Of a stretch of DNA of 48,077 bases, positions 23,628 to 43,382 are shown piece by piece. The first letter of the stretch is position 1. Each line of letters opens with the position of its first letter. The DNA is from Bdellovibrio sp. (GTDB taxonomy: Bacteria > Bdellovibrionota > Bacteriovoracia > Bacteriovoracales > Bacteriovoracaceae). A model generated the notes under the pieces. The model was not told the origin of the DNA. It did no database searches and saw nothing but the letters and a program-made list of their open reading frames with translations. Both the position numbers and the translations under genes were made by a program. Where the stretch lies: NCBI GenBank assembly GCA_016187935.1, contig JACPIU010000032.1:1-48077 (forward strand). Reading direction: 5' to 3'.

Positions 23628-26600
23628 TTAATCAATCAAATAATCATACTCAATTTCAATTGTGGCCTCTTGTAATAAGGCCTTGGTGCCTTCATCAGTG
23701 AGAGTCGTTAGATTGACCTTGAGATCTGTCAGCCCACCAGGTCTGGCAAACAACAGCAGATCTTCATCACTTTGCAAAAGCGAGTGAAGTAAGGAATCAT
23801 CAGCATAACTCGGCGTTATATCGTTCATAGTTCCCTTAAGGATATTTTTTGTTCCTCCCCACTTCAATCTTGACTTGGAAGTTGTATTGCCAAAATCGAA
23901 AAGATAGTAAACTCCGCTTCGCTTGATATAGGATGCCCCCGAATATCTAAGATTCAACGTTCCTTCCGCTATCAATCGTGGGATACCTGTGACGTCAAAT
24001 TCCATATTTGAAACTTTAATATTATTGATTCTTACATCTTGCAAACTTTGTCCTCCGTCATCATCTCCGAAAATATTTTTGCTCTTCAAATCGAGATATA
24101 TGGTATGTCCTTCATTCAAAGCTTTTATCTGTTCCGTGGAAAGATTGAAACTTCTAATGGCCGTATTATGAAAGACACTTCCGTGGTTCAATTCGTTCAC
24201 AATACTCTCTACAACTTTAGACATCTGGTTTTCGTAGATTCCCTTAATTTCCCTAAACTCATTGAAAGAAAGAGCGCCATTGTGTCCTACCTTGACCAAC
24301 GCTTCGATCTTTTTCATCACCGGGCCAAGATCCAAATCACCTGGAAATTTTTTGAGCATACGATAATGGTAAGCTTTGGCCATAAGGTAATTATATTTGT
24401 CTAACCGATCTTTGGCTTGCTCCTCAATGTCCCCGAGGCTGCTTTTCAGATTTGAATCAATACCGCTTTCCAAAGCCGCCTGGGCTTCACTTAATTTTGC
24501 AATGGACTGATACGAAGTAGCGATATCGTTAACAATTTTTCCCAGAAAAGATTCAATCTGGTTGATCTCTTGGGCAAAATCCTTGCGCTTGGCCACCAGG
24601 GCTTCAAGTTTTTCGCTAATTTCTTTAAAAAGGGGATGAGCGGATTTTATTTTCTGGATTTCTTCCTCGACTTCACTTTGAGGAACTCGAACGTGCTGGT
24701 TCGTGCCGGCTGTATTGGCCAGTTCTTTTCCGATAGGTTTCATAAAGTCGCCCAGATTTTTCAGGTATTCCTTTTTCCGGGCCTTGATTTCCTCTACAGA
24801 CAATCCGGAAGTTTCTGGACGAAGTGAGAAAACTTCACGATATGTACCATATTGGATATTCTCACGTTTTTTATTCCAGTCCTCTCTGATGTGACGCAAA
24901 TTATCCGGTTGAAATGCGGAAACGGTATCGGGAAGGGTGTCTATAACATCCTGCCATGGCCTTTCAGTTCCCATCCCCTGCACAACGGCATCAACCGTGG
25001 TGGCAATCGCCCCAAGATGAGGTTGCCCAACCGGAATAACTTTGGAAATTGCGGCCAAAATCTTAACCGCCTTTTTGTAGAAGGGAACACGATGTCTTTG
25101 ATCCACATTTCTCTCGGCCTGGGCCAAGATTGCAGCTTCGACTTTGGCCAATTCTTGCTTAAAGGTATTTTCATCAACTTGAATGTCTGCCAGATTCTTT
25201 TTCAGACCAGGAATTCGATCTACCAAGGTATTAAAATTTTTACTGTCTTCATCGATTTGGGCCATTTGTTGATCTTGACTGGCCATAATGGCATTTCTTC
25301 GTTCCTCCAAACTATTTTGTGTTCTTCGCAACCAATAGGTCAGATATAAAATATTAAATGATCGTTCCACTTCCGTATTAAATAATTGATAATTGGCTTC
25401 ATAGGATAGGTTGGGGACCCAGACCAGAGGATTTCCATAATAATCAAGACCCGCACTGATCTTTTGATTTTGCAAACTCCCCTCATGACAATATTTATCA
25501 GTAAAAAGTACTGTGTGATTTTGCCCCTCAAGTTTGTTGCAAATAACAAGTACTTCATTCACAAGATGTTGGGCTTCCTCCGCCATGTTAATCTTATACA
25601 AGTCTTCAGCATATTTTATGGCAAATTCAAAATAACCTTCGTTCAACCAACTCTTAGAATCATCGGTCAAAATTTTGCCGACATCCCCTCTCTCGCGCTT
25701 TATGCCAGGTGATTTTGCATCGGCACCTTTTGTAGCCGTGTTGGAATCCGTTATGAAAACATCATTTTTACCTCGATTGTTGGTTTCATTCCTTCTGTGA
25801 TAGGCCGTTACCGGTGTGCCTGAAGCACCTCCCACATAATGACGGACGGGGTTGCCGGATTTTCCACCAATGAGATCCACCAGGCCGGCATCGAATTTTA
25901 AATTGGAGATAAATTTACCTCCATTTCCAGGAAGTCCAGGATTCCCGCCCGCAATAGCATTTGTACCGTTTCCTGGCCATCCAAGTTCGCCATCTATTGT
26001 TGTTTTGGTAGAACACTCAATCTCTTTGCTAATATCTTTTGGTCCGCGAATAGACCTACATTCATCATGAATTTTAACAAGATAAGTGACCTGTCCCCCC
26101 AAATCGCGAACATCGCTTCCTTTCGTTCCATCTTGGCCTTCACCGGCGTCTTGTCCGTTGCCACCACGGGCGGTAAAAATCGGTTCTTTGATATTGGAAT
26201 CGATGGAAATGCTCTCCAGATTTAAACTGATTGTTCCACCATTTTGTCCGCCTTTTCCGTCTTGAAATTGTGCAGCTTTAGTTTTAAAGGCCAAGGGAGT
26301 CACATCTATTTTCGCATTCCTTTTCATATTGAGGGTGCGAGCGTAGATAGTGAGATTTGTTCCAGGGACATTTAAGGGGCATTCCACATCGATAACTTCC
26401 GCCTTAAAGGTCACGGATGCAATGTCATTTTGATTGTGAATCGGCTTACGTATTCCCTGCAAATCGACGTCATTTAAAACCAGGTGTTTTCCAGAAATCA
26501 CCACGTTCTTTACGCCTTCAGGAAAATTGATATGATTGTTATGGAAATTCTTTTTATCCTTGCTGACTTCTAATTTCACATAACGTTTGTCACTTTCCGC

Positions 26601-26807
26601 AAGTGGCGTTCCGCGATCAATAAAATTTACCGCATTGATTTTGCTTTTTGAAGGTGAGAGCAAGGCATAGTTCATTCCAGTGGATGGCGTTTCGCTTATC
26701 TGTGAGGTATTGGCACCATCTTTGTTTAATTCGTTTTCGTAATTAGTATTTTCTCCACACGAAGATAGTAAAAGGCCCATAATGACTAAGCTATAAGCTG
26801 TTTTCAT
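23628..26807 (-). CDS. Large lipoprotein with glycine-rich and coiled-coil regions, unknown function
   Basis: Lipoprotein signal MKTAYSLVIMGLLLSSC with the lipidated Cys at residue 17. The ATG at 26807 follows GGAGAGG; the frame upstream to 26864 is not used. The first third has parallel-beta or collagen-like glycine-rich stretches (GKGGQNGG, GGNGQDAGEGQDG, GGNPGLPGNGGKF), suggesting a beta-helix or glycine-loop surface structure. Residues of roughly 400-800 are long charged helices with heptad character. The last 200 residues look beta-rich. The protein is 1059 aa and lies alone on its strand. I do not recognise a family. Its size and sorting signal suggest an outer-membrane-anchored surface or periplasmic structural protein. 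Confidence 0.8.
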   Translation of the reverse strand: MKTAYSLVIMGLLLSSCGENTNYENELNKDGANTSQISETPSTGMNYALLSPSKSKINAVNFIDRGTPLAESDKRYVKLEVSKDKKNFHNNHINFPEGVKNVVISGKHLVLNDVDLQGIRKPIHNQNDIASVTFKAEVIDVECPLNVPGTNLTIYARTLNMKRNAKIDVTPLAFKTKAAQFQDGKGGQNGGTISLNLESISIDSNIKEPIFTARGGNGQDAGEGQDGTKGSDVRDLGGQVTYLVKIHDECRSIRGPKDISKEIECSTKTTIDGELGWPGNGTNAIAGGNPGLPGNGGKFISNLKFDAGLVDLIGGKSGNPVRHYVGGASGTPVTAYHRRNETNNRGKNDVFITDSNTATKGADAKSPGIKRERGDVGKILTDDSKSWLNEGYFEFAIKYAEDLYKINMAEEAQHLVNEVLVICNKLEGQNHTVLFTDKYCHEGSLQNQKISAGLDYYGNPLVWVPNLSYEANYQLFNTEVERSFNILYLTYWLRRTQNSLEERRNAIMASQDQQMAQIDEDSKNFNTLVDRIPGLKKNLADIQVDENTFKQELAKVEAAILAQAERNVDQRHRVPFYKKAVKILAAISKVIPVGQPHLGAIATTVDAVVQGMGTERPWQDVIDTLPDTVSAFQPDNLRHIREDWNKKRENIQYGTYREVFSLRPETSGLSVEEIKARKKEYLKNLGDFMKPIGKELANTAGTNQHVRVPQSEVEEEIQKIKSAHPLFKEISEKLEALVAKRKDFAQEINQIESFLGKIVNDIATSYQSIAKLSEAQAALESGIDSNLKSSLGDIEEQAKDRLDKYNYLMAKAYHYRMLKKFPGDLDLGPVMKKIEALVKVGHNGALSFNEFREIKGIYENQMSKVVESIVNELNHGSVFHNTAIRSFNLSTEQIKALNEGHTIYLDLKSKNIFGDDDGGQSLQDVRINNIKVSNMEFDVTGIPRLIAEGTLNLRYSGASYIKRSGVYYLFDFGNTTSKSRLKWGGTKNILKGTMNDITPSYADDSLLHSLLQSDEDLLLFARPGGLTDLKVNLTTLTDEGTKALLQEATIEIEYDYLID

Positions 26808-27070
26808 AACCTCTCCTTCATTCTTACGTATGGCCGTCTTATCATCAGGAAAAATTAAAATCAAAATATCGACATTCCGTGAATGCAGACGTTTTGATAA
26901 TAAAACAATTGATGTGTAGTCCTTTCAAAAGCATTGCAAGATGAATACTTCCTATCAGGTAGGGGTGGAATAGATGGGCAAATGCGAATAAAAGGGATCA
27001 ATTGGTCATTCACAACAAAAGATGCAAGCTTGTATTTAAACGCGACGGGCGAAATTAAGTTGGCCGAGCA

Positions 27071-28324
27071 CTAGTTGAAACGCTTATCAATCACGATGCA
27101 TAGTTTACCTGTACGGGGATTTTTCTCAAGTTCAGTTAACTTGCAAAAATGAATTTGAATAGGTGCGACTAATTGCTTGAGGATGGAATCTTTCAACATT
27201 GGTCTGGCGGTCATGAAATGTGCTTCAACTGCATTGGATAACTCTGTGCTGGCGGGAGAGGTGAGAGCGATTTTCAAAATTAGTTTATCGAGAGATGAGG
27301 AGGCCCGTTCGATGATAGATTGGAAGGCCATGACTTGATTACCTAAACATTGATCTAAGATTTGTCTAATTTCTTCGCTGGTGATTGTGACCGGCCCAAG
27401 TCGGATTCCCTCTTCGGTGCGCCCCTTGATAATAAAACGTTCACCTGGAACGGTCCAGACGGCTTCATCTCCGACAGGATAACGAATGATGGGCATTAGA
27501 GAGCGTGTCAGGTTAGTATAAATAAGCCGACCTTGGATACCAGGTTTGGTTATGGCCTTCCCGGTTTCGTTATCAATAATTTCAATGATAGTTGAGTCCC
27601 TGAAAACACCATGTTCGCCGTGAGCACCATCCGCAATGGCAAAACCAAGGTGACCGCCATCGACACTGGCGTAACCAATAGAAGAAATAATTCTGGCGCA
27701 GGGAAAAACGCGGGATAAGATGGCCCGCTGGTCAGGAAATAAACTTTCTCCGCCATAGAAAATTTTGGTGATCAGTCTGGCCATTTGGGGTCTTGAGGTA
27801 AGCTCATGGGCAAGCTGAATGATAGTAGTTGGAACACCAGCTAACACATTAATTCTGTGCGAGTGAATTGTTTCAATCATTGATTCAAGTTTTGCTGCAC
27901 CGGAAAGCGGGTAGTGAATTAAATCAAGGGATGTCTGCTCCATTGATTTGGTAATGAAAAGAAATGAGGCGTAAAGTTCGCCGGCATAGAAAAGGTTGGC
28001 AACTTTGTCGCCATTTTGAAATCCTGCGCTTTTGAATTCTTCGCCGAAACATTTTGTGAAGGTTTCCCATTCCTCTTTTAAAAAAACTGAAAATTTTGGA
28101 AGTCCGGTGGTGCCTCCGCTTTTGAAAACCACACCACTTGAGACAGGGCCGGTAAGAAGGTGATTATCTTCAAGGGTGTTTGCCCTCCAAAAATTTTCTG
28201 CTGATACGATGGGAAGATCATGAAAAGCGAAATCATGCTGTGGGAACTTTGTATAAAGGTCGCGATAATAATCTGATTTTTCGCGCGCAAATTTGATAAG
28301 GTCTGGGACTGAGTAGATTGTCAT
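27071..28324 (-). CDS. PaaK-like acyl-CoA ligase (phenylacetate-CoA ligase family, AMP-forming)
   Basis: The 417-aa ANL-superfamily enzyme has the adenylation loop KSGGTTGLPK near residue 69. Further motifs are the YGGES and SIGYASVDGG segments (usually YG-x-x-E or ASxE), RYPVGDEAVW with the ribose-binding Asp, and IIKGRTEEGIRLG. A PaaK-type C-terminal domain follows (about residues 310-410). Such enzymes activate aryl or acyl acids to acyl-AMP and then acyl-CoA. Its ATG overlaps the stop of the LuxC-PaaK gene (ATGA). The key acidic residue after the GYAS motif is Asp rather than Glu, so specificity is uncertain. Confidence 0.8.
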   Translation of the reverse strand: MTIYSVPDLIKFAREKSDYYRDLYTKFPQHDFAFHDLPIVSAENFWRANTLEDNHLLTGPVSSGVVFKSGGTTGLPKFSVFLKEEWETFTKCFGEEFKSAGFQNGDKVANLFYAGELYASFLFITKSMEQTSLDLIHYPLSGAAKLESMIETIHSHRINVLAGVPTTIIQLAHELTSRPQMARLITKIFYGGESLFPDQRAILSRVFPCARIISSIGYASVDGGHLGFAIADGAHGEHGVFRDSTIIEIIDNETGKAITKPGIQGRLIYTNLTRSLMPIIRYPVGDEAVWTVPGERFIIKGRTEEGIRLGPVTITSEEIRQILDQCLGNQVMAFQSIIERASSSLDKLILKIALTSPASTELSNAVEAHFMTARPMLKDSILKQLVAPIQIHFCKLTELEKNPRTGKLCIVIDKRFN

Positions 28325-30669
28325 ATTTTCCTTCGGTCGATGACATGTTTGAGTTTTCCGCTTCCAGGTGTAAGTTCTAGGTCAGCTAGAGCGCAAAATT
28401 CGGTGGCCAGGTGAACGCTCTTCTCTTCCACCACTATTTCAAAGAGATCATGATAGTTGTTAACTAACTCGTTTAAAACCTTTTCTTGGCCAAGGGAATG
28501 ATTTTGATTTGCCAAACGCAAGATCAGCGAATCATGATCATTCTTATGCTCAAGAATGATTTGAAATTCTGAGTTAAATCCGCAATGGTCTTCTAGAAGT
28601 TGCATGAATTTTTGATAGTTTAAAAAACTGCCACCAGCTTTAAAAACATCGCCAATTCTCCCTTTAAGATCAAAAAGGATGTCGGAAGAACCACAAGGAC
28701 ATTTATTATCTGAAACGATTCCTGTATCACCCACAATATAACGTTGAACCAGTGACGATTCTCTCATAGGGGTGGAAACGACAAGGCGTCCGAGTTGGCC
28801 TGGGACGACGGCACGATCACCATGCAAATCCAGCACTTCAATTTGGTGAAGGCCTGAATGAAGATGGTGAAGAGTTCCTTCTGTATATGGGCATTGATAA
28901 CCGAGTGGGCCGGCATCGACTGAACCATAAGCTGCTGAGCGTATTATTTCAATGCCGAATTCATTGCTGATTTTCTCTCGAATGAGTGTAGGAAAATGCT
29001 CTCCTCCGAAATATATTTTCTTAATGGGACAATTATTTTTGAACAGATGACCTTCTTGAGTGAAGAGAGTAATGAGATAACTTGGCATTCCTAGGAGAAC
29101 ATTGGGCCTGAGATTTTGAATTGTTTCTGCTACATATTTGAAATCTAAGTGGGCACTCATGGGCAATTGAGGGACGCCAATTTTTTCCAAAATGGTGTAG
29201 AAACTTAAGAATCCTCCATAGAGTCCGCCGCCGAAGAAAAGATTAACGCATAAATCATCTTTGGGATTAAGTCCTGCGGCAATCAATCCCTTGGCCGCGT
29301 AAGACATGAGGAGGTGATAATCGCGGTAGGTAAAGCGTGAGAGTGCGGGAATGCCTGAGGAGCCTCCACTTTTGAAATAGAGATCAGTGTGTTTGGGCGT
29401 CTGATTGGCCTTCTGAAAGGCTGACTTATCCATTAAGAGAGCGGTTGTGTTTGGATTTGCCAGACTTACTGAACTGGCGCAAGAAATCTCGGAATCCATG
29501 CTTACGCGACGAAGAAAGCGCGCCAATCCATATTCGCCATCATGGGGTTCTCCCACATGGCCATCAGTCATTCTGCCAATAGGTCGAATGCGTGTAACGC
29601 CAGCAGAAAAAAGTGTTCGTGCCAAGAGAGGAAAATGTTCGGGGGAAGCTGCAAGACCACACGTTTGAAGATAGGAGCGATAGGGCGCTAAAATACTCCA
29701 GTCATGATTTCGAGGCCACGGTTTAATCCATAAAGTTTTGTAGAGGGGTGAAGTTTCCAGTTGGGATGAAGTTGTAACGAAGAGTCGCCAGTTTTTATGA
29801 TCGCCTTCGTACAGTTTTGCTTTTTCAGGACCGTCAGGCATTAATGATTCATAAAATTGCATTAGGGTTTGGGTAGTCACTTCGGATTGTTCATCTAAAC
29901 TGGTGGCGCCCACATGCTCGACGTCTTTCATAAACGGGACAATTCTTTCTGCAAAGGAGCAAAGCTCTTCAAAATTTCCCGCCTCAATGAAGACCACTTG
30001 GGGAGAACTGCAGGCCTGCTGGTTGTTTAAGGTGATTTCATGAACTAAGTTTTGTAAGACCTGCGAATTTTGGCCGGAAATGCCGTCAATAACGGCGAAA
30101 GAGATTTTGTGTCCCCAAGGGATAAAGCGAACGCCTGGAGGTACAGCAGCACGGATGCTGGTTAGTGCCTGATCCCCTCCCCATGCCGAGACGCCATCGA
30201 CCAGGCCCATGGCCTCCTGTAGTGACCCTTCGAATGGTATGATGTAGTCTGCTAAACGGGTGGAAAATGATTTTAATTGCATGACGAGATTGTAAGTCCA
30301 CGCTTCTTCTTTTCTGGAAAGTTTCAAAATGTTGATATTGCCAGTGAGAAGGCCATCGATCAAAGCGTAAAAGGCCAATCCAGGGGAATTACCGGGAAGA
30401 ATGTGCAGGATGGTTCCAAGCGGCATCCAACCTTCATAAAGATGCGACTCACCTGGCAGAAGATTCAATTCGCCTAATTCCAATGTCCCGACTTCTCTTT
30501 CCAATTTTTTTAAGAGGTGTGAGCGCTCCAGGTAGCTTAATAAAAAATGATAATTGCTGTCGGGAATGTCGAGCGGTTTATGAGCATGCAACAAATTTCG
30601 GAAATTTTCCAAAATAGAAATTACTTCTAAGGCACGAGGGAAATTGGTCAGGGCCTTAGGGTTTATCAT
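28321..30669 (-). CDS. LuxC-type acyl-CoA reductase fused to a PaaK-like ligase
   Basis: A 782-aa two-part enzyme. Residues of roughly 1-400 match LuxC, the fatty acyl-CoA reductase that yields aldehydes with NADPH. It has GWMPLGTILHILPGNSP, the nucleotide-binding WGGDQAL stretch and the catalytic thiol in NNQQACSSPQ (Cys220). Residues from about 425 to the end match PaaK/LuxE-type adenylating enzymes: KSGGSSGIP, IYFGGEHFPT, AAYGSVDAGPLG, YIVGDTG, CPCGSS and DLKGRIGD. The ATG at 30669 overlaps the luxE-like stop (ATGA) and has AGGAGGG six bases upstream. The frame open to 30720 is inside luxE. The fusion puts acid activation and reduction in one chain. Luciferase genes are absent, so the aldehyde is presumably used elsewhere. 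Confidence 0.85.
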   Translation of the reverse strand: MINPKALTNFPRALEVISILENFRNLLHAHKPLDIPDSNYHFLLSYLERSHLLKKLEREVGTLELGELNLLPGESHLYEGWMPLGTILHILPGNSPGLAFYALIDGLLTGNINILKLSRKEEAWTYNLVMQLKSFSTRLADYIIPFEGSLQEAMGLVDGVSAWGGDQALTSIRAAVPPGVRFIPWGHKISFAVIDGISGQNSQVLQNLVHEITLNNQQACSSPQVVFIEAGNFEELCSFAERIVPFMKDVEHVGATSLDEQSEVTTQTLMQFYESLMPDGPEKAKLYEGDHKNWRLFVTTSSQLETSPLYKTLWIKPWPRNHDWSILAPYRSYLQTCGLAASPEHFPLLARTLFSAGVTRIRPIGRMTDGHVGEPHDGEYGLARFLRRVSMDSEISCASSVSLANPNTTALLMDKSAFQKANQTPKHTDLYFKSGGSSGIPALSRFTYRDYHLLMSYAAKGLIAAGLNPKDDLCVNLFFGGGLYGGFLSFYTILEKIGVPQLPMSAHLDFKYVAETIQNLRPNVLLGMPSYLITLFTQEGHLFKNNCPIKKIYFGGEHFPTLIREKISNEFGIEIIRSAAYGSVDAGPLGYQCPYTEGTLHHLHSGLHQIEVLDLHGDRAVVPGQLGRLVVSTPMRESSLVQRYIVGDTGIVSDNKCPCGSSDILFDLKGRIGDVFKAGGSFLNYQKFMQLLEDHCGFNSEFQIILEHKNDHDSLILRLANQNHSLGQEKVLNELVNNYHDLFEIVVEEKSVHLATEFCALADLELTPGSGKLKHVIDRRKI

Positions 30670-31829
30670 GTCGGCCCTCCTGCGCTTCGCTTTAGAATAT
30701 CTAATGCCTGTACAGCGCAACTTTTTCCGGCCTTGATACCGGCACGACCGACAATTTCAAAATAGTCAGCTTCAAGTCCACAACGGCACTCTGTTCCAGC
30801 ATGAAGAACGGCCAGGTCACCCATAAGAACTGAATTGGCCGGCACACTGGTGATATAAGGTGAGATAAATTGTAAGAAACCTGGGCGTCCAAAAGGAAGA
30901 ACCTTGAGAGTGGCAGGATCACGAATTAGCACCTTAGACCAGATGGGAATATGGAAATTGTGGTAAGCACATTCCACATAAGGAATACAGTGCTCAACCG
31001 AGCCATAACCATCGCGCAGGCGTGCATTTTGAAATCCCAGAAGTTCTTCTGCTTTTTGATACAGTTCTATTTTTGAGATGGCCTTATCCTGATGGCCCTT
31101 CCATCCTCCTCCTAAGAACGTCATTGATTCGGGATGAAATTGATAAGGCCCTCGCTTGAGTTCGCGCATTTTGTCCAATGTAAAATTTAAGAAGGCAGGA
31201 AACCCAAGAATGCGAAGAGGTAAACCTTCCTGGGCAAATTCGTCAATGGCCCTTAAAGTGCCAAAGAGGTCGAAGCTATGGCGTCCGCCACCTTCAAAAC
31301 GAAGAGCATAAAAAACTTTATTGATAGGAGCATATTTGCAGAGGAAATTATCGGTATAGGCGGTTCCTAGCTTGTCAGCGCCTTCTGGTTCGTAGGTATA
31401 AAGTAAATAATTGGCCTTTTCCTGACTGACAAGACCATAATGTTTAAAAATCCAGTCCACCATCCGCTGTGCCGATTTAATCGTCCATTCATCAAAAAAA
31501 ATCTGGCTTTTTTGTCCGGTGGTTCCTGAACTGGTTAAATGCAAAAAAACTTTTTCTTTGGGAATAGAAATGACTTCGTGTTTTTTAAAAAAGTTGGCAT
31601 GGATAAAAGGCAAAAGAGAAAGATCGGAACTCTCAACCCATTTGCTGGCCTTGATAAGGTTTCGATAAAAAGCATTGCGTTCGATATGCCAGTTAATATT
31701 CTGAATCATGGCATGTTTAAAATCTTCAGCGAAATTTTTGCAAGTGTTATAGGGACCCGGAGTCGAACAAACCTTGTACACCTCTGATAACAGTGTCAGG
31801 TCGGGAATGTGAATTAATTCGCTCCCCAT
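30666..31829 (-). CDS. LuxE-type acyl-protein synthetase
   Basis: The 387-aa protein follows the LuxE family: HLTSSGTTGQKSQIFFD (ATP loop near residue 97), ILGFPAFLNF, FLGGGWKGHQ, LRDGYGSVEH and MGDLAVLHAG. Known LuxE activates a fatty acid to acyl-AMP, transfers it to a Cys near its own C-terminus and passes it to LuxC. Here Cys371, 16 residues from the end (GKSCAVQALDIL), sits where that thiol is expected. Its start overlaps the GNAT gene by 16 bases and its stop overlaps the LuxC-PaaK start. Confidence 0.87.
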   Translation of the reverse strand: MGSELIHIPDLTLLSEVYKVCSTPGPYNTCKNFAEDFKHAMIQNINWHIERNAFYRNLIKASKWVESSDLSLLPFIHANFFKKHEVISIPKEKVFLHLTSSGTTGQKSQIFFDEWTIKSAQRMVDWIFKHYGLVSQEKANYLLYTYEPEGADKLGTAYTDNFLCKYAPINKVFYALRFEGGGRHSFDLFGTLRAIDEFAQEGLPLRILGFPAFLNFTLDKMRELKRGPYQFHPESMTFLGGGWKGHQDKAISKIELYQKAEELLGFQNARLRDGYGSVEHCIPYVECAYHNFHIPIWSKVLIRDPATLKVLPFGRPGFLQFISPYITSVPANSVLMGDLAVLHAGTECRCGLEADYFEIVGRAGIKAGKSCAVQALDILKRSAGGPT

Positions 31830-33040
31830 TGGTGGTCTCCGAAGGCCTTAAGGTTGCGACTGCTCCACTGTTCCGTATAAAGCTTGAAATAGGGGATGAG
31901 ACTTGGATGGGCCTCAATTTCACTGAAATCGAGAGGAACCATGGTTCGAGTCAAGAGAACATAGTCATGCATGGCCCCATCTTCCTCGCGCATGGCGGGA
32001 TAGATCGCCGAAGGGATGAATTTATTTTCCATCAAGTAGCATAGGGAAGAGAAATTATCGAGATCCACCAAGAGTTCAATGTAGTAGATGCCTTGTTCCT
32101 GCATGGCAAAGATTAAATTTTTAAGGCCACGACCGAGCGAACGTAGACTGCGATTAGTGCTAATGATCACGCAATAATGATCCTTCTTGGTGAAGCAAGC
32201 GAAAATCTCCAGGCCCAAATTTGGTTCAAAGATGAGTAAATTAGGGCGATGAAATGGATAAAAAGTATCTTTTTTATCTTGCTCGAAAAGTTCTTCAGAG
32301 CGTTTATGCACAAAATGAGTGGCATCAATAAATTCAAATTCCAGCCGGCGATTATCATTCTCGCCGATCACCGGAGGAAGGCTGGGACACTGATCGACCG
32401 CCACATAGAGAGGATGTCCAATGATTTTTTCAACCATCTTTGCCATAGGGGCCAAATCGGTTGGGATAATAGCAACCGGTTTTCTTTTTTCTAATATTCC
32501 AGGACGAAAACGTCCCATGAGAGAGAGCGTTTCATAGGTTTTAATTTTGCGCGCATTGGGAAAAATCCCAAGAGGCATGAAACCATTTTTTAGCAACATC
32601 GCTTGTGAAGAGAGTGCTACGGTCCGGGAGGTAGAATAGAGAGAGTTGAGGTCATGTTTCTCAAAAGCAGTGCTGGCGGCATGTTCGATTAAGCGATTGG
32701 CGACTCCGCATCCCTGATAATTTTTTCCAACTATTACCCCCGTCACTTTACCGATTTTGAGAGACAAGTCGAGTTCGACGATGCAAGAGCCGGCCAGAGT
32801 ACGGCGTTCCTTATCTCGCATGACGTACCATTGAAAATGCTCGATGCCATCTTTTGGCGTTTCCAGTGCCATCTGCATGACCGACTTGTTTGTGCCTATC
32901 TCAAGAGGGTAGTCTGGCCCGTACGCCTGAAAGTATAAGGCCATCAATTCATCGACATCCGTCTTTTGTGCATGATCAATAATTAATTCCATATAAGCAA
33001 ACTTTTCCGACTCTGTTAGTTGACTGAAAGGGCATATCAT
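31814..33040 (-). CDS. Two-domain GNAT acyl/acetyltransferase, first gene of the lux-type operon
   Basis: The 408-aa protein has an N-terminal GNAT domain (about residues 20-185) with the acetyl-CoA loop VGKNYQGCGVANRL and a C-terminal QAMLLKNGFMPLG segment. A second, weaker GNAT-like half (about 190-390) repeats the pattern (LIFAMQEQGIYYIELLV ... LMENKFIPSAIYP). GNATs move acetyl or longer acyl groups from CoA or carrier protein to amines. Placed before LuxE and LuxC it could acylate an amine with the pathway's acid or prepare its substrate. The start at 33040 lacks a Shine-Dalgarno; a start at residue 17 is possible. Confidence 0.78.
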   Translation of the reverse strand: MICPFSQLTESEKFAYMELIIDHAQKTDVDELMALYFQAYGPDYPLEIGTNKSVMQMALETPKDGIEHFQWYVMRDKERRTLAGSCIVELDLSLKIGKVTGVIVGKNYQGCGVANRLIEHAASTAFEKHDLNSLYSTSRTVALSSQAMLLKNGFMPLGIFPNARKIKTYETLSLMGRFRPGILEKRKPVAIIPTDLAPMAKMVEKIIGHPLYVAVDQCPSLPPVIGENDNRRLEFEFIDATHFVHKRSEELFEQDKKDTFYPFHRPNLLIFEPNLGLEIFACFTKKDHYCVIISTNRSLRSLGRGLKNLIFAMQEQGIYYIELLVDLDNFSSLCYLMENKFIPSAIYPAMREEDGAMHDYVLLTRTMVPLDFSEIEAHPSLIPYFKLYTEQWSSRNLKAFGDHQWGAN

Positions 33041-33171: not shown

Positions 33172-33636
33172 ATGAAGCATACAATATACTATATCGCCAC
33201 CAGACCCCTCTTGTTGGCCGTTTGCCTGGCCATAGGTTTGCTCGTTTCTTCTCTGGTTAGGGCCCAAAGTCGCGCCCCTGCCGTGTTACCGGAGATGGGA
33301 ATTTCCATTGAAGAACGAAAACACACCCCTCCTAATGAAGCGAGAGAGTTTGGGTTCAATTTCAAAGAGCCCAAGGTCAAACCAGAAGTTGTCGCTGTCA
33401 CAGAGGGTCTTGAGAGACAAGGCGAGCTAGAGGCCTCAACCACTCTTGTCATTTTTGCCATGGCGATTTTGGCCATGCCTATTTTTCTTTGGGTGGGGCT
33501 TATGAAACAGCTCAAAAAGCAACGGGCCGAAATGCTTGCCACCAACACCCCCATTTCCCTTGAAGAATTTCGCGCCAAACAAGAGGCCAATAAAAAGATT
33601 GCTGAAGAAAAAAAGGATCTACCAAAAGCATCCTAG
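33172..33636 (+). CDS. Small exported/membrane protein of unknown function
   Basis: The 154-aa protein has an N-terminal hydrophobic signal (LLLAVCLAIGLLVSSLVRA) and a middle Pro- and Glu-rich segment. A second hydrophobic segment at about residues 95-115 (LVIFAMAILAMPIFLWVGL) is followed by a basic and charged tail of 40 residues. If the first segment is cleaved it is a single-span protein with a cytoplasmic tail; otherwise it spans twice. AAGGATGG precedes the ATG. Its end overlaps the convergent gene at 33633 by 4 bases. No family recognised. Confidence 0.7.
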   Translation: MKHTIYYIATRPLLLAVCLAIGLLVSSLVRAQSRAPAVLPEMGISIEERKHTPPNEAREFGFNFKEPKVKPEVVAVTEGLERQGELEASTTLVIFAMAILAMPIFLWVGLMKQLKKQRAEMLATNTPISLEEFRAKQEANKKIAEEKKDLPKAS

Positions 33637-36033: not shown

Positions 36034-36649
36034 GCTAACAATCCTTCATGGGAAGGCCAAATCTAATTCGCATTAACAATTTACCCTATCACATTACTAC
36101 AAGATGTAATAATCGGGAATGGTTTGATCTACCTCTGCAGAGAGTTTGGGATATTTGCATTAACTCGATTGCTGTCGCAAATTTTAAATTCCCTGTGCAA
36201 ATTGAAGCGTTCGTACTTATGAATAATCATTATCATCTGTTACTCTATACCCCAAATGCTGATGTTGATCGATTTATGCACATCTTGAATTCTAACATAA
36301 GCAAACGATTGCGAGAGGAAACTTTGCGGGTAAATCGCATCTTTGGAAACCGTTATTCGTGGATAATAATCCAGGATCAAAATCACTATAAAAATGTAGT
36401 TCGGTACATTTTCCAAAATCCACTTAGGGCCGGGCTGGCAAGTCGCTGTGAAAATTATCCAAATTCCACGCTCTTTTATCAGGTGAGAGGAAGATCGTTT
36501 TCGTTTAAGCTGCCGGATAGATTCAAAGAAGAGATATCTTTAGATTTTCTTAATCAAGAAATGTCTCGAGACGAAATGTTTGAGATTAAATGCAAGTTAG
36601 ACAAAAGGACTAGGTTGTAGTTTGTCGCATAACACCGAGTACATGGCAC
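35954..36649. mobile_element. RAYT-type element bounded by inverted repeats
   Basis: GTGCCATGTACTCGG at 35954-35968 and its exact reverse complement at 36635-36649 flank the transposase gene. Allowing three mismatches the repeat extends to 24 bases (21 of 24 positions). Inside it a direct repeat TTTGTCGCAT occurs at 36024-36033 and 36621-36630. The second copy starts at the first base after the transposase stop. The left inverted arm is inside the coding sequence of the 35410 gene. This is the layout of a REP-associated tyrosine transposase with its palindromes, or of a small insertion unit. Confidence 0.65.
36048..36620 (+). CDS. REP-associated tyrosine transposase (Y1/HUH, IS200-like fold)
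   Basis: The 190-aa protein has the Y1 nuclease fold: N-terminal YHITTRCNNRE, the HUH metal motif in MNNHYHLLLY (H-Y-H, near residue 65) and the downstream helix YKNVVRYIFQNPLRAGL that carries the nucleophilic Tyr. This fits RAYT proteins, which act on single-stranded palindromes and are usually single-copy. It appears complete. Its start lies 15 bases from the divergent 35410 gene, and its stop abuts the second TTTGTCGCAT. Confidence 0.88.
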   Translation: MGRPNLIRINNLPYHITTRCNNREWFDLPLQRVWDICINSIAVANFKFPVQIEAFVLMNNHYHLLLYTPNADVDRFMHILNSNISKRLREETLRVNRIFGNRYSWIIIQDQNHYKNVVRYIFQNPLRAGLASRCENYPNSTLFYQVRGRSFSFKLPDRFKEEISLDFLNQEMSRDEMFEIKCKLDKRTRL

Positions 36650-36662
36650 GTTTCAAAGTGCA

Positions 36663-39600
36663 TTAAAAGCGGAGGGGGAGGAGGGCGTCGCCCATCTCGC
36701 CGGCGCTGTCACCAAAGTTACCCACCATACCTGCGCCTATTTGTCCAAGATGGTTATAACCCCAGCATTTGACGTCATTATTATCCAGGACTGCGCAGGT
36801 ATGATAATAACCTGTCTTGACGTCAATGGCGGTTCGTCCTGTGCCTAGGTTCACATAGGGGAGTAAGTCTCCCATGGTGCCGCCAGCAGTGCCCTTGGCC
36901 GCGGTGGTGTTGAGCCCTAATTGCCCTTGAGCATTGTAGCCCCAGCATTTCATCTTATCGTTATCAAGAATGGCACAGTTGTAGTTGACGCCGCAGGAGA
37001 GTTTTTTAACCGTTCTACCTGTGCCCAGATTGACGTAGGCCAGGGCATCACCCATCTCTCCTGGCGCATCGCCGATGTTATTAGTATTTTCGTAGCCGAG
37101 CTGTCCATTTCCACCATAGCCCCAGCATTTGATCTTATCGTTATTTGTGATGGCACAGGCATGGTAGTTATTGGTACAGACATATTTGGCGGTGAGACCT
37201 GTGCCGAGATCAACGGGTGTAAGTGCTGCCATTTCCCCCACCTGATCTCCAAGATTGTTGGTATGTCCTTGGCCTAAGTTGCCGTAGGGGTTGTAGCCCC
37301 AGCATTTGACGGTGCCATTATCTAAGCGGGCACAGACGCTGTAAGTCCCAACCGAAAATTGAATGGCGGTACGTCCGGCGCCTAAGTTGATGGGTGCGGT
37401 CGTGGGGATGTAGGTATAGTTACTAGTATTGTCCTGGCCTAAATTGCCATAGGGATTGTAGCCCCAGCAACGTAAACTGGTGTCATCGAAGAGCCCACAA
37501 GAAAAGGGTGATTGATAGTCGCCTTCGACATGAACCGCCTTGACCCCGAGTCCCGCGTTCAAGTTTGGAATGCAGCTACCAATTTCTCCAAAGGTGTCAC
37601 CGATCGCCCATTCCGCCGAGTTACTGCCGAGCAGGCGATAGCCACCCTCGTTGTAGCCCCAGCATTTAGTGGTACCGCTATTGCCTATGGCGCAGAATCC
37701 AAGGTAGGTATGGGAGATTTTATTAACATCACCGTTTATCGTTCCCAGGTTGACAGAGGCAAGGCCGCTTCCCATCTCGTTGTATTTGAGTCCTATGGCA
37801 GCTCGACCTGTGCCGTCCTCTCCATATAAGACTCGGCCCCAGCAATAAACTCCGTTTCGGCCGTCCTTTTCAATAACGGCACAATTATTATCTCCATTTG
37901 TCTTGGCGAGTTTTTTGGGGATGGCATTAGTGCCTAGATTGACTGTGAGGAGACTGTCACCCATATCTTCGGGAATCTTGCCAATATCTCTTCGGTGGCC
38001 CAGTCCCAATTGACCCCAGATATTATAGCCCCAGCATTTCAAGCTATCGTCGTTTAGGATGGCGCAGGTCCAATAATTGCCGGCCTCGACTTCTTTTACC
38101 GTTTTACCTGTGCCCAGTGGCACGGCGGTAAGCGTGGCCATCTGCCCTGGGGCAGCTCCACGGTTGACAGTATCACCTAGGCCCAGTTGCCCATAGGCAT
38201 TGTAACCCCAGCATCGTAGAGAATTGTCGTCGAGGAGAGCGCAGACGTGGTAGATGCCCGAGGTGATTTTAACAATCTTTTTGGGCAGGAAGGAGACGTC
38301 AGTTAAATCGGTCAAAGTGGCCATTTCCCCTGCGGCATCGCCGATGGTGTTGGTATTTCCGATACCTAAATTGCCATAGGGATTATAGCCCCAGCAACGG
38401 GCCTTGCCATCGCTGAAGGCCACACAGGTTGAAACCCAACCAGCGCTGATATCAATGACGGTTTTTCCGCCAAAGTTGACGGGGGCCAGTGCGGCCATCT
38501 CACCTGCGGCATCACCTAATTGATCGGTATTATCGTATCCCAACTGCCCATAAGCGTTGTAACCCCAACATTTCACCGTACCACCCACCAGAAGAGCGCA
38601 GGAGTGGAGGTATCCGGCGGTGACTTTGGTCGCCGGCCCGCCTAAATTGACTGGCGGTGTACTATAGATAGGCGGGCTTGCTCCATAGTAACTTGTATTG
38701 TCCTGTCCCAACTGCCCATAGCCGTTATAGCCCCAGCACTTCACATCGCCATTATCCAGCACTCCGCAGAAGTGATAGTATCCGCCTTCTACTTGTACAA
38801 AGGCGCGAGAAGCACCAGGAATGAGCATGGGAATAAACTCACCTAATCTGGCGGGATTAATGCTGTCGCCGCCCCAGTCATAACCATTGGCCGAGTGACC
38901 GCTGTAACCCCAGGCCTTGATAGGGCCATCATCAATGACAGTGATGTCGTCGAGTATGGTGGCGATAGCACTCACACCGGTTGCCGCGACACTGATAGGA
39001 CTGACTTCTGGCGCTAGCGCTAGCGAAGCTGGGAGGAGATTGTCGCCCATATCGGAAGCCTGGTCACCGACTATTGTGCCGTCTTGTCCCATCTGCCCAT
39101 GCTGGTTATTACCAAAGCACTTAACCTCGTTGCTATTGCCCTTCAGAACGCAGGTCGCAAATTGGGATACGGCGATTTGGTTCCAGACGAAATATTCTAT
39201 GGAGGCCTCGCTCGAATATCCCTGCGAGTCCGTAACTCGAATGGTGGAAGTGCCGGGAGTGGCAGGAGCGGTGAAGTTGCCTGCGCCATCAATGGAGCCG
39301 CTCCCCAAAGATACTGCGTAGATGAGAGGCGGTGTACCGCCAACGACAGAGAAAGCGAAAGATGTACTGACGGCAATTTTTTTGGATGTGGGTGAGAGTA
39401 CCGGGCCGGCACCGACATCCACAGTGGCATTGACGATAATTCCACGATTGTCAGTGACACGAATAATGCTCTGTCCGGCAAGTGCAGGAGCGGTAAAAAC
39501 ACCATTGGCATCAATGGAACCGCCACCGCTGGCGATGGCAAAATTATAAGGAGGGTTTCCGCCGGTTACATTGAAGGTGAATGAAGTCGAAACATTGAGC

Positions 39601-39998
39601 TTTTTGGTACTGGGGGTGATGACGAGTTCAGAATCAATGGTCACGAGAGAGTCGGACTGTGCCCCTTTTGAATCAGTAACACGGACGACGGCATTACCGG
39701 GAGACCCTGGAGAGAGATATTTACCAGCGGCCTCTATTGAACCGCCACCTGAGACAAGTGAGAATTGATAGGGGGGTGTTCCGCCTTGAGCATTAAATTG
39801 AAATTCGGTATTGATAAACATCTGCTTGAAGGTCGGCATTATAGTAAGAGGAAAGGGAAGGATCACATCATTAGTAATGATCTTTGTGTTGGTATTTTCT
39901 TTTTCCAATTGCTGAAGATCTTGCTCAGTGACATTACACGACGTCATGAGGCAGATCATGCATAAAATATAAGTTAATTTTAAAACTGACATTCTCAT
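36663..39998 (-). CDS. Lipoprotein with three Ig-like repeats and 14 RCC1-type repeats (copy A)
   Basis: The 1111-aa protein has a lipobox LMTSC (Cys21) and a short Gln/Glu/Asn linker. Three tandem Ig-like repeats of about 75 residues follow (each with GGTPPY/GGNPPY, GGGSI and IRVTD). The rest carries fourteen copies of the RCC1-like unit C-x-x-L-D-x-x-x-x-K-C-W-G-Y-N-x-x-G-Q-L-G, of which two are degenerate. RCC1 units form seven-bladed propellers, so 14 units fit two propellers. Most blades have a Cys pair, suggesting a disulfide per blade in an exported protein. A GTG at 40004 is an alternative start. It lies just downstream of its paralogue, probably co-transcribed. The partner or ligand is unknown. 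Confidence 0.85.
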   Translation of the reverse strand: MRMSVLKLTYILCMICLMTSCNVTEQDLQQLEKENTNTKIITNDVILPFPLTIMPTFKQMFINTEFQFNAQGGTPPYQFSLVSGGGSIEAAGKYLSPGSPGNAVVRVTDSKGAQSDSLVTIDSELVITPSTKKLNVSTSFTFNVTGGNPPYNFAIASGGGSIDANGVFTAPALAGQSIIRVTDNRGIIVNATVDVGAGPVLSPTSKKIAVSTSFAFSVVGGTPPLIYAVSLGSGSIDGAGNFTAPATPGTSTIRVTDSQGYSSEASIEYFVWNQIAVSQFATCVLKGNSNEVKCFGNNQHGQMGQDGTIVGDQASDMGDNLLPASLALAPEVSPISVAATGVSAIATILDDITVIDDGPIKAWGYSGHSANGYDWGGDSINPARLGEFIPMLIPGASRAFVQVEGGYYHFCGVLDNGDVKCWGYNGYGQLGQDNTSYYGASPPIYSTPPVNLGGPATKVTAGYLHSCALLVGGTVKCWGYNAYGQLGYDNTDQLGDAAGEMAALAPVNFGGKTVIDISAGWVSTCVAFSDGKARCWGYNPYGNLGIGNTNTIGDAAGEMATLTDLTDVSFLPKKIVKITSGIYHVCALLDDNSLRCWGYNAYGQLGLGDTVNRGAAPGQMATLTAVPLGTGKTVKEVEAGNYWTCAILNDDSLKCWGYNIWGQLGLGHRRDIGKIPEDMGDSLLTVNLGTNAIPKKLAKTNGDNNCAVIEKDGRNGVYCWGRVLYGEDGTGRAAIGLKYNEMGSGLASVNLGTINGDVNKISHTYLGFCAIGNSGTTKCWGYNEGGYRLLGSNSAEWAIGDTFGEIGSCIPNLNAGLGVKAVHVEGDYQSPFSCGLFDDTSLRCWGYNPYGNLGQDNTSNYTYIPTTAPINLGAGRTAIQFSVGTYSVCARLDNGTVKCWGYNPYGNLGQGHTNNLGDQVGEMAALTPVDLGTGLTAKYVCTNNYHACAITNNDKIKCWGYGGNGQLGYENTNNIGDAPGEMGDALAYVNLGTGRTVKKLSCGVNYNCAILDNDKMKCWGYNAQGQLGLNTTAAKGTAGGTMGDLLPYVNLGTGRTAIDVKTGYYHTCAVLDNNDVKCWGYNHLGQIGAGMVGNFGDSAGEMGDALLPLRF

Positions 39999-40010
39999 AT
40001 TCACTCTAAA

Positions 40011-43000
40011 TCAAAAATTGATCGGGAATAGGTTATCTCCCATCTCATTTGGGGCCTCGCCAAAATATGTATCGGCCCGTCCTTGTCCCAATTGCCCCCT
40101 AAAATTCCATCCCCAGCATTTAACTTCATTTGTGTCGAGAAGTGCGCAGGTGTGATAATAACTTGCTTTAATATCCACTACGGTCCGCCCTGTTCCGACG
40201 TCGACATAGGGGAGTAAATCTCCCATAGTGCTACCGACCGATCCTTTTTGCGCTGTCGTATTAAGACCAAGCTGGCCGTAGCCGTTGTAGCCCCAGCACT
40301 TCAACTTATCGTTATCAAGGATGGCACAGGTGTAGTTGACGCCGCAGGAGAGTTTTTTAACCGTTCTGCCTGTGCCCAGATTGACGTAAGGAAGGGCATC
40401 GCCCATCTCACCGGGAACGTCGCCTCTGTTATTGGTATCTTCATAGCCGAGTTGCCCATTACCGGCATAGCCCCAGCATTTGATTTTGCCGTCGTTCGCG
40501 CCATTCATGAGAGCGCAGGCGTGGTAGTTATTGGTGCAGACATATTTAGCGGTAACTCCGGTGCCAAGATCAATGGGTGCGAGGGCCGCCATTTCTCCCG
40601 CCTCATTGCCAAGAATGTTGGTGTGTCCTTGGCCTAAATTGCCATAGGGGTTATAGCCCCAGCATTTGACTGTACCGTTATCGAGGCGAGCACAGACACT
40701 GTAGGGACCAAGCGAAAACTGAGTGGCGGTGCGACCAGCGCCCAAATTAATGGGAGGCGTGGTGGGGATGTAAGTACGGTTTGCGGTATCATCCTGGCCT
40801 AAATTTCCATAGGGGTTATAGCCCCAGCAACGTAAACTGGTATCATCGAAAAGTCCGCAGGTGAACGGAGATTGATCATTCCCCTCAACTTGGATGGTCT
40901 TGACCCCAATGCCGGCATTCAGATTTGGAATTCCGCTGCCGATCTCACCGTAGGTATCACCAATGGACCATTCCGACGAGTTGCTGCCAAGAAGTCTATA
41001 AGAGGTTTCATTGTATCCCCAACACTTGCTCGTTCCACTTCCAGTGCCGCTCGTGCTAGTTGCACAGTGGCCCAGATAACTTCGCGTGATGGTTTTGCTT
41101 TCTCCATTCATGGAACCAAGGTTGACTGCCACGAGATTACTTCCCATATCGGCGGTCCGAATACCCACAGAACCTCGCATGGTTCCATCTTCTCCATAAA
41201 AGGAGCGCCCCCAGCAGGAAACCTGTTTTGCTCCATCCTTTTCGATGATGGCGCAGGTGTTGTCGTATGAAATACTTCGGACAATCTCCTTAGCTATAGC
41301 GTTGGTTCCGAGATTAACCGCAAGAAGGTTATCCCCCAGATGTGAGGGGTCAGTTCCAATATTGGTTAAGTGGCCCAGGCCCAATTGACCGTAGTTATTA
41401 TAACCCCAGCATTTTAGAGTATCGTCATCCAAGATGGCGCAGGTATGTTCTCCATGAGGGGCCATTTGTTTGACCGTTCGACCGGTTCCAAGAGGGATGT
41501 TGACTAAGGTTCCCATCTGCCCTGGGGCGGTACCGCGACTCACGATGTCCCCTTGTCCCAGTTGTCCCTTATTGTTATATCCCCAACATCTCATGGCATT
41601 GTTATCGAGGATGGCGCAGGTGTGGTAATATCCTCCAGCAATTTTGACAAAAGTTCGACCTGCAAATGAGATTTCGGGCAGTGCTGCCATCTCGCCTGGG
41701 GCATCACCGCGTGAATCCGTACTTCCTATTCCAAGTTGCCCTTGAGCATTGTAACCCCAGCACTTGGCATTTCCATTATCCAAGACAACGCAAGTATGGT
41801 AGCCACCGCCACCTATGTCAGTGGCCGTTCTACCTACGCCAAGATTGACAGGAGCAAGCGCTGCCATCTGCCCGGCCCCTGTGCCGATCCATGTTGTGCT
41901 ATCCTGACCGAGTTCTCCGTTACCATTGTATCCCCAGCATTTAACTGTCCCATTGTCGAGAAGAGCGCAAGCGTGCCAAATTCCCATCGAGACTTTGGTG
42001 GCCGGTCTGCCAAGGTTAACTGCGGGAAGACTGTAAAGGGACGCACCATAGTAGTTTGCTTGGTTATCTTGTCCCAACTGACCGTAGTAGCCATACCCCC
42101 AGCACTTGACGTCCCCGTTATCGAGGAGGGCGCAGTTCTGGTAATAGCCCCCCTCCATCTGAACGATGGTTCGATTTGCGCCAATAGGGACGAAGGGAAT
42201 ATTGTCGCCCATGGAATTGGCCCCAATAGTATCGCCGATTCCACCAAAGCCATTCTGTCCTTGGCCGCTGTACCCCCAACACTGAGCGAGATTGCTTTCG
42301 AAAAGGGCGCATACGCCGATGTAGCTCATAGCAAGCTTGCTTGGAATCTGGTCGGTAGCGAGGATGGTAGGAAGTAAATTATCGCCCATATCGGACGGTT
42401 GGTCGCCGGTCGCCATGCCATCTCTTCCGAGTTCACCATACTGATTACTTCCGAAGCATTTAACTTCACCCGAATTGCCTTTGAGAATACAGGTTGACAT
42501 GTAGGTTGCCGAAATTTGGTTCCAGATGAAGGATTCCACCGTGGCTTCGCTCGAATAGCCCAAAGCATCTGTTACGCGAACTGTTGAGTTTCCGGGAGTG
42601 GCCGGTGCGGTGAAATTACCCGTGCCGTCGATTGCTCCACTGCCTAATGCCACGGCGTAGGTTAGAGGCGCGGTCCCGCCCACCACGCTGAATTGAAAGC
42701 TGGTATTCACAGCCATTTTCTTGGTCGTGGGCGATATGACGGGGCCTAGACCGACATCAACCGCGGCATTGACGATAGTTCCGCGATTGTCGGTGACACG
42801 AATAATAGTCTGAGTGGGAGCAGCGGGTGCGGTATAGACTCCGTTGGAATCAATCGAACCACCACCGCTTGCAATTGCAAAAAGATAGGGAGGATTGCCG
42901 CCGGTTACGTTGAAGGTAAATGATGTCGAGACATTGAGTTTTTTGGTGTTGGGCGTGATAACCAATTCCTCGTCAATCGTGATGAGGGCGTCGGCGGTAG

Positions 43001-43367
43001 AGCCGAATAAATCGGTCACGCGGATCACGGTGTTTCCCGGGGCCCCAGGTGAAAGATACTTACCCCCAGCTTCCTGAGTGCCTGGTCCAGAGACGAGCGA
43101 AAATTGGTACGGTGGTGTTCCCCCTATTGCGGTGAAGACAAATTCGGTATTGGTGAAAATTTGTTTGAAGGCAGGAACGACAGTGAGAGGGGTTGGCAGG
43201 GTAACTTCATTGGTCACCACTTGAGTCTTGGTTTTTGCTTCAGTCTTTTCCAACTGCTCTATGTCTTGATTTTGGATATTGCAACCACCAATCAAAGCAA
43301 TGAATGTCAGGGCAACCGTTACCCTAAATAGGTCCGACAACAATTTATTGCCGCTTTTTAATTTCAT
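40011..43367 (-). CDS. Lipoprotein with three Ig-like repeats and 14 RCC1-type repeats (copy B)
   Basis: The 1118-aa paralogue of the next gene on the strand. The lipobox is LIGGC (Cys29), after a start at ATG 43367 preceded by GAGGG. The frame also opens at a GTG at 43382. The architecture is identical: three Ig-like repeats, then 14 RCC1-type repeats in the same order, including the same two irregular units (CWGRSFYGEDG and CWGYNETSYRLLG). Only about a dozen bases separate its stop from the next gene, so the pair looks like a tandem duplication in one operon. RCC1-like lipoproteins are plausible adhesins or protein-binding propellers; no catalytic motif is seen. Confidence 0.85.
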   Translation of the reverse strand: MKLKSGNKLLSDLFRVTVALTFIALIGGCNIQNQDIEQLEKTEAKTKTQVVTNEVTLPTPLTVVPAFKQIFTNTEFVFTAIGGTPPYQFSLVSGPGTQEAGGKYLSPGAPGNTVIRVTDLFGSTADALITIDEELVITPNTKKLNVSTSFTFNVTGGNPPYLFAIASGGGSIDSNGVYTAPAAPTQTIIRVTDNRGTIVNAAVDVGLGPVISPTTKKMAVNTSFQFSVVGGTAPLTYAVALGSGAIDGTGNFTAPATPGNSTVRVTDALGYSSEATVESFIWNQISATYMSTCILKGNSGEVKCFGSNQYGELGRDGMATGDQPSDMGDNLLPTILATDQIPSKLAMSYIGVCALFESNLAQCWGYSGQGQNGFGGIGDTIGANSMGDNIPFVPIGANRTIVQMEGGYYQNCALLDNGDVKCWGYGYYGQLGQDNQANYYGASLYSLPAVNLGRPATKVSMGIWHACALLDNGTVKCWGYNGNGELGQDSTTWIGTGAGQMAALAPVNLGVGRTATDIGGGGYHTCVVLDNGNAKCWGYNAQGQLGIGSTDSRGDAPGEMAALPEISFAGRTFVKIAGGYYHTCAILDNNAMRCWGYNNKGQLGQGDIVSRGTAPGQMGTLVNIPLGTGRTVKQMAPHGEHTCAILDDDTLKCWGYNNYGQLGLGHLTNIGTDPSHLGDNLLAVNLGTNAIAKEIVRSISYDNTCAIIEKDGAKQVSCWGRSFYGEDGTMRGSVGIRTADMGSNLVAVNLGSMNGESKTITRSYLGHCATSTSGTGSGTSKCWGYNETSYRLLGSNSSEWSIGDTYGEIGSGIPNLNAGIGVKTIQVEGNDQSPFTCGLFDDTSLRCWGYNPYGNLGQDDTANRTYIPTTPPINLGAGRTATQFSLGPYSVCARLDNGTVKCWGYNPYGNLGQGHTNILGNEAGEMAALAPIDLGTGVTAKYVCTNNYHACALMNGANDGKIKCWGYAGNGQLGYEDTNNRGDVPGEMGDALPYVNLGTGRTVKKLSCGVNYTCAILDNDKLKCWGYNGYGQLGLNTTAQKGSVGSTMGDLLPYVDVGTGRTVVDIKASYYHTCALLDTNEVKCWGWNFRGQLGQGRADTYFGEAPNEMGDNLFPINF

Positions 43368-43382
43368 CAAACCCTCGTACAC

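Follow-up and report, generated by a model that had tools for sequence, protein, structure and literature searches.

The window, i.e. the whole stretch of 48,077 nucleotides analysed here, is an entire contig (JACPIU010000032.1) from the 4.4 Mb, 99%-complete genome of a Bdellovibrio sp. (GCA_016187935.1). It possesses a cassette of four minus-strand genes spanning 33040 to 27071, which encode, in this order, a GNAT-family acyltransferase, a LuxE-like synthetase, a LuxC reductase fused to a PaaK-like ligase (LuxC-PaaK) and a separate PaaK-like ligase (PaaK2; Table 1). The genes for GNAT and LuxE overlap by 16 bases (ATGGGGAGCGAATTAA), the two following pairs by 4 bases each (ATGA); re-measured in this way, the four overlapping genes described in the first-pass annotation proved real. 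Translation of LuxC-PaaK starts at the ATG at 30669, within the ATGA overlap, and the mechanically assigned TTG start at 30720 is unnecessary. With 79% identity across the fusion, the MAG Bdellovibrionales bacterium GWA2_49_15 (MEPP01000023.1) is the nearest named relative.

Table 1. Position of the cassette genes, their domains and catalytic codons, and the flanking gene in the window.
Feature	Coordinates	Strand	Remarks
GNAT-family acyltransferase	31814..33040	-	408 aa; Pfam Acetyltransf_1
LuxE-like acyl-protein synthetase	30666..31829	-	387 aa; Pfam LuxE
LuxE Cys371 codon, predicted acyl-accepting thiol	30717..30719	-	counterpart in 7xc6 chain E: C-terminal Cys
LuxC-PaaK fusion	28321..30669	-	782 aa; ATGA overlaps on both sides
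LuxC acyl reductase domain	29506..30594	-	fusion residues 26-388; Pfam LuxC 6.9e-69
LuxC Cys220 codon, predicted catalytic thiol	30010..30012	-	counterpart in 7xc6 chain A: QQAC Cys
PaaK-like ligase domain of the fusion	28330..29382	-	residues 430-780; NCBIfam PaaK 1.5e-21
PaaK2, separate PaaK-like ligase	27071..28324	-	417 aa; Lys407, Arg302, Asp286 conserved
Flanking gene in divergent orientation; small product, membrane-bound or secreted	33172..33636	+	no Pfam family

The flanking gene belongs to a family (F2) present in 14 of 42 compared loci, where it is divergent from the cassette; it is a conserved flank, outside the pathway proposed below. Immediately downstream of the cassette (23628-26864) lies the gene of a protein of ~1,060-1,080 aa that begins like a lipoprotein and has no reliable Pfam match, the place of which holds other genes in the nearest relative (locus L004). 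Further features of the window are two tandem proteins of ~1,120 aa with RCC1-type repeats (36663-40004 and 40011-43382), a gene for a Y1/IS200-like transposase (36048-36620) and, at the contig edge (1-101), a 5S rRNA gene of which the 3' part is contained, so that the contig probably ends in an rRNA operon. Promoter and terminator sites were no more numerous in our scan than in shuffled sequences. PADLOC detected no defence families; phage defence was rejected.

LuxE matches its Pfam family with 2.3e-29 and, as a profile, the LuxE chain of the structure 7xc6 with 1e-45; the LuxC domain matches chain A of 7xc6 with 1.5e-62. Both possess the cysteine characteristic of a LuxC/LuxE-type acid reductase pair. 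Cys220 of LuxC (motif QQAC) is invariant in 40 of 40 homologues, and Cys371 of LuxE (motif KSCA, at the C-terminus) in 31 of 31. The two thiols named in the first-pass annotation are retained in a proper profile alignment with 7xc6, where they fall on cysteines of the LuxC and LuxE chains; the acyl sites published for these chains we take to be Cys286 and Cys364, respectively.

The fused PaaK domain has a Pfam AMP-binding match (5.2e-8) and a profile match of 7.3e-54 to 4r1l. PaaK2 falls below the cut-off for Pfam AMP-binding (4.5e-6), and matches the PaaK profile with 1.5e-18 and 4r1l with 5.7e-41. Both modules retain the features of PaaK-type ANL ligases, i.e. the P-loop glycines, the A8 Asp/Arg and the C-terminal Lys: Asp648, Arg671 and Lys772 of the fusion are present in 40 of 40 homologues, and Asp286, Arg302 and Lys407 of PaaK2 are invariant in 30 of 30. 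The acidic A5 residue is Asp in the fused domain (39/40) as well as in PaaK2 (30/30), and Glu in 4r1l. A set of Cys593, His602, Cys657 and Cys659 is retained in 38 of 40 fused domains and is missing from PaaK2 of the window. In the clade of the window some 80 residues at the N-terminus of PaaK are missing from the fused domain; in locus L041 the domain is encoded as a separate gene of 381 aa, which indicates that the fused PaaK can act as a subunit of its own. The cut-off of the phenylacetate-CoA ligase equivalog TIGR02155 (646 bits) is missed by both modules (68 and 67 bits), as is every other PaaK equivalog cut-off, and the substrates can therefore not be read from the name PaaK.

GNAT contains a Pfam Acetyltransf_1 match above cut-off (6.6e-7, residues 68-154) within an N-terminal domain of about residues 18-167, with YQGCGVA (residues 108-114) as the region of the CoA-binding motif. 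Its C-terminal half is a divergent GNAT-like repeat without recognisable CoA-binding motif, so the earlier description as a two-domain GNAT holds for the N-terminal domain and, for the remainder, in a loose sense. The RxxGxA/G motif is incomplete in several homologues, which makes the use of acyl-CoA by GNAT less than certain. Predicted models of GNAT and the fusion reached a mean pLDDT of 36.6 and 31.2, respectively, and were discarded as unusable. In two species of one genus a GNAT homologue is located apart from the cassette and contains one in-frame TGA each (G126:C32:26807-27973 and G127:C36:43478-44644); LuxE, LuxC-PaaK and PaaK2 are still together in locus L034 of the same genus.

In comparison with GWA2_49_15 the four genes have pN/pS values of 0.06 (GNAT), 0.13 (LuxE), 0.18 (fusion) and 0.16 (PaaK2), synonymous sites being almost saturated; these values indicate strong purifying selection on each of them. 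Among 369 genomes of the phylum Bdellovibrionota, LuxC-PaaK has matches in 101 (a few of them to PaaK only), GNAT in 103 and LuxE in 104. GNAT and LuxE co-occur in 97 genomes, and all three in 96; the hypergeometric value of the co-occurrence (3e-72) ignores relatedness and is not readable as a probability. LuxE lies within 300 bp of GNAT on the same strand in 83 of 108 GNAT places, GNAT always being upstream. Full-length relatives of the fusion occur at about 40% identity in ~50 genomes of the phylum.

The order GNAT, LuxE, LuxC-PaaK, PaaK recurs across genera, in 20 of 41 loci that were read out (one of them with unfused LuxC and PaaK), these loci being picked for matching and not a random sample. 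PaaK2 is missing in 11 of the 41, and so appears dispensable in some lineages. Five loci possess PaaK and a HATPase-GNAT protein ahead of LuxE and the GNAT behind the fusion; the others are different or incomplete forms. The low pN/pS values and the gene order kept across genera exclude chance, and a frame or annotation artefact as the origin of the four-gene unit was rejected. The tree of the fusion consists of three deep groups, with copies from Streptomyces and Salmonella beside the group of the window. Between the five modules, pairwise distances are correlated (r 0.87-0.95), as expected for a unit inherited together, a correlation that shared descent alone could also produce.

Recurring neighbours of the cassette, part of which could be annotated, comprise unknown families, MFS transporters, a glutamine amidotransferase, an HD-domain protein and the HATPase-GNAT protein. 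An MFS gene of one family adjoins the cassette in 11 of the 41 loci. The cassette of the window has no MFS gene inside, and a search of the source genome, run without positive control, found no relative of the cassette MFS. The HATPase-GNAT protein (family F11; L051, L052, L054, L055, L056 and L058) is ~480 aa long, combines an anti-sigma-type HATPase with a weak GNAT domain, and adjoins the LuxE and LuxC-PaaK genes in one cassette group. The HD-domain protein (family F10; L025, L028, L029, L031, L032 and L040) follows PaaK2 in two genera; its N-terminus is response-regulator-like by eye, a possible regulatory link.

Outside Bdellovibrionota, the distribution described here derives from a plasmid collection only. 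Full-length fusions of 37-38% identity are present in the records of three Streptomyces-type replicons (Streptomyces sp. NBC_00158, S. cattleyicolor pSCAT and Streptomyces sp. BHT-5-2) and of two Salmonella plasmids, the latter with LuxE beside LuxC-PaaK. The three Streptomyces-type replicons have PaaK, an MFS transporter, GNAT, LuxE and LuxC-PaaK in common, and no other surrounding gene is shared by all of them. Wherever the cassette GNAT occurs in plasmid records, LuxE and LuxC-PaaK lie beside it (4/4). The one Salmonella record read out contains LuxE, LuxC-PaaK, PaaK and a different GNAT of 294 aa. E. coli genomes contained nothing close to the Salmonella cassette, and viral contigs no relatives of GNAT or LuxE. 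A plasmid of Streptomyces europaeiscabiei (NZ_CP109155.1, 2553-11011; L070) carries LuxE and LuxC without PaaK in a RiPP-like context, next to an MbnB/TglH/ChrH-type iron enzyme, an MBL-fold protein and a YcaO protein.

In bacterial luminescence the aldehyde is provided by LuxC and LuxE, and the cassette could accordingly take part in light production by a luciferase that is encoded elsewhere or of unknown kind. The luciferase family (PF00296, Bac_luciferase) has no match at E 0.001 in the source genome, with 10 of 14 controls positive, which extends the statement of the first-pass annotation that luciferase is missing to the genome as a whole; luxA and luxB, the mark of a bacterial lux operon, are hence not found in it. 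For luxD (PF02273) the source genome likewise lacks a match, as does every control genome; the gene is likely absent. To our knowledge, lux operons contain nothing equivalent to the PaaK modules or GNAT. Luminescence was rejected, and we give this reading a negligible probability.

On the basis of its sequence, the cassette would with reasonable probability form a dedicated biosynthetic line, in which a lux-like acid reduction is combined with two acid-activating modules and an acyltransferase to yield a small product. LuxE would adenylate a carboxylic acid and load the acyl group onto Cys371 of LuxE itself; from there the group would move to Cys220 of LuxC, which would use NAD(P)H to reduce it to an aldehyde. 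The fused PaaK and PaaK2 would activate one or two further acids via acyl-AMP to acyl-CoA, GNAT would join an acyl group to an amine, and the small product would be exported, in many lineages by the MFS transporter beside the cassette. Of these steps, the reaction types of LuxE, LuxC and the PaaK modules are inferred from their families and residues; amide formation by GNAT, the sequence of the steps, their substrates and export by the source organism are speculative. The first-pass annotation had proposed a line of acid activation, reduction of one acid to an aldehyde and acylation of an amine: intact catalytic residues, the missing luciferase, tight linkage and the MFS gene (in 11 of 41 loci and three Streptomyces-type replicons) argue for such a line in general, and its last step stays conjectural.

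Alternatively, the cassette could supply an acyl or hydroxyacyl group to a glycan or lipid of the cell surface, a role that lux-like genes presumably have in flagellin glycosylation islands and in the tetronate pathway of the Vibrio cholerae O-antigen. LuxE, LuxC and AMP-dependent ligases are contained in flagellin glycosylation islands of Enterobacteriaceae (PMC4875605) and likewise of Aeromonas (PMC7874193), and a LuxE domain is present in V. cholerae RfbN of O-antigen synthesis, as cited in PMC4772473. However, glycosyltransferase, sugar-nucleotide, flagellar and acyl carrier protein genes are missing among the recurring annotated neighbours, and the five-gene unit common to the Streptomyces replicons is free of glycan, flagellar and ACP genes. 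We regard this destination, the chief alternative, as unlikely; the lack of such genes together with the recurring MFS exporter points to a free, exported small molecule.

A second alternative is fatty acid salvage or membrane lipid remodelling, in which free fatty acids, e.g. from prey, would be converted into aldehydes or alcohols with GNAT as an accessory. Fatty acids are the substrates of LuxC and LuxE in luminous bacteria, and many relatives of the cassette come from a phylum known for predators. Yet the ligases resemble PaaK and not the ligases of long-chain fatty acids, GNAT is closely linked to the other genes, and the cassette is found on Streptomyces and Salmonella plasmids and is missing in most of the sampled genomes of the phylum. 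This leaves salvage or remodelling rather improbable, and the same distribution weakens the predation-linked compound considered earlier.

Within the favoured biosynthetic line, we tentatively suggest a natural product pathway free of carrier proteins, in which three adenylating modules, a reductase and GNAT might form a small exported N-acyl aldehyde-type compound, or a cyclised product, from primary acids and an amine, the cassette being mobile as a unit among Bdellovibrionota, Streptomyces and Salmonella plasmids; this specific version is possible and less probable than the line as such. There is a fair chance that the cassette represents a distinct natural product class. A compact conserved enzyme set in three distant phyla, without PKS, NRPS or carrier protein, may escape genome-mining tools. 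If a free aldehyde-derived compound is made, the cassette would illustrate how lux chemistry serves purposes other than light, and would offer a small, directly testable pathway in bacteria with poorly known chemistry. We found no description of the gene set in the open-licence literature, and no homologues tied there to a known product.

Among known systems, the Lux fatty acid reductase complex (LuxC-LuxE of luxCDABE; 7xc6) resembles the cassette in the LuxE and LuxC families, both cysteines, the adjacent genes and the acid-to-aldehyde chemistry that would be expected of it. In contrast to luxCDABE, the cassette lacks a luciferase, its LuxC is fused to PaaK, and a second PaaK and a two-part GNAT are added; its LuxC scores 53 bits against an NCBIfam cut-off of 750, its LuxE 84 against 550. 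Phenylacetate-CoA ligase (PaaK; 4r1l, 2y4o, 2y27) shares the profile family, the A8 Asp/Arg and the C-terminal Lys with both modules, and the Cys/His/Cys/Cys set with the fused domain, but differs in the A5 residue, the ~80 N-terminal residues missing from the fused domain and the sub-equivalog scores. The ligases FlxY (flexirubin) and BagE/FevW (bagremycin/ferroverdin) are distant PaaK-type adenylating enzymes of natural-product clusters, but the scores are low (24-57 bits, with cut-offs of 520-800) and the genes that accompany these ligases are others. The flagellin glycosylation islands and the RfbN pathway share with the cassette the combination of LuxE, LuxC and AMP-dependent ligases without luminescence, but are set among glycosyltransferases, sugar genes and ACP, none of which recurs by the cassette. 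The use of LuxC and LuxE outside luminescence is already known, and the cassette is a variant of such use.
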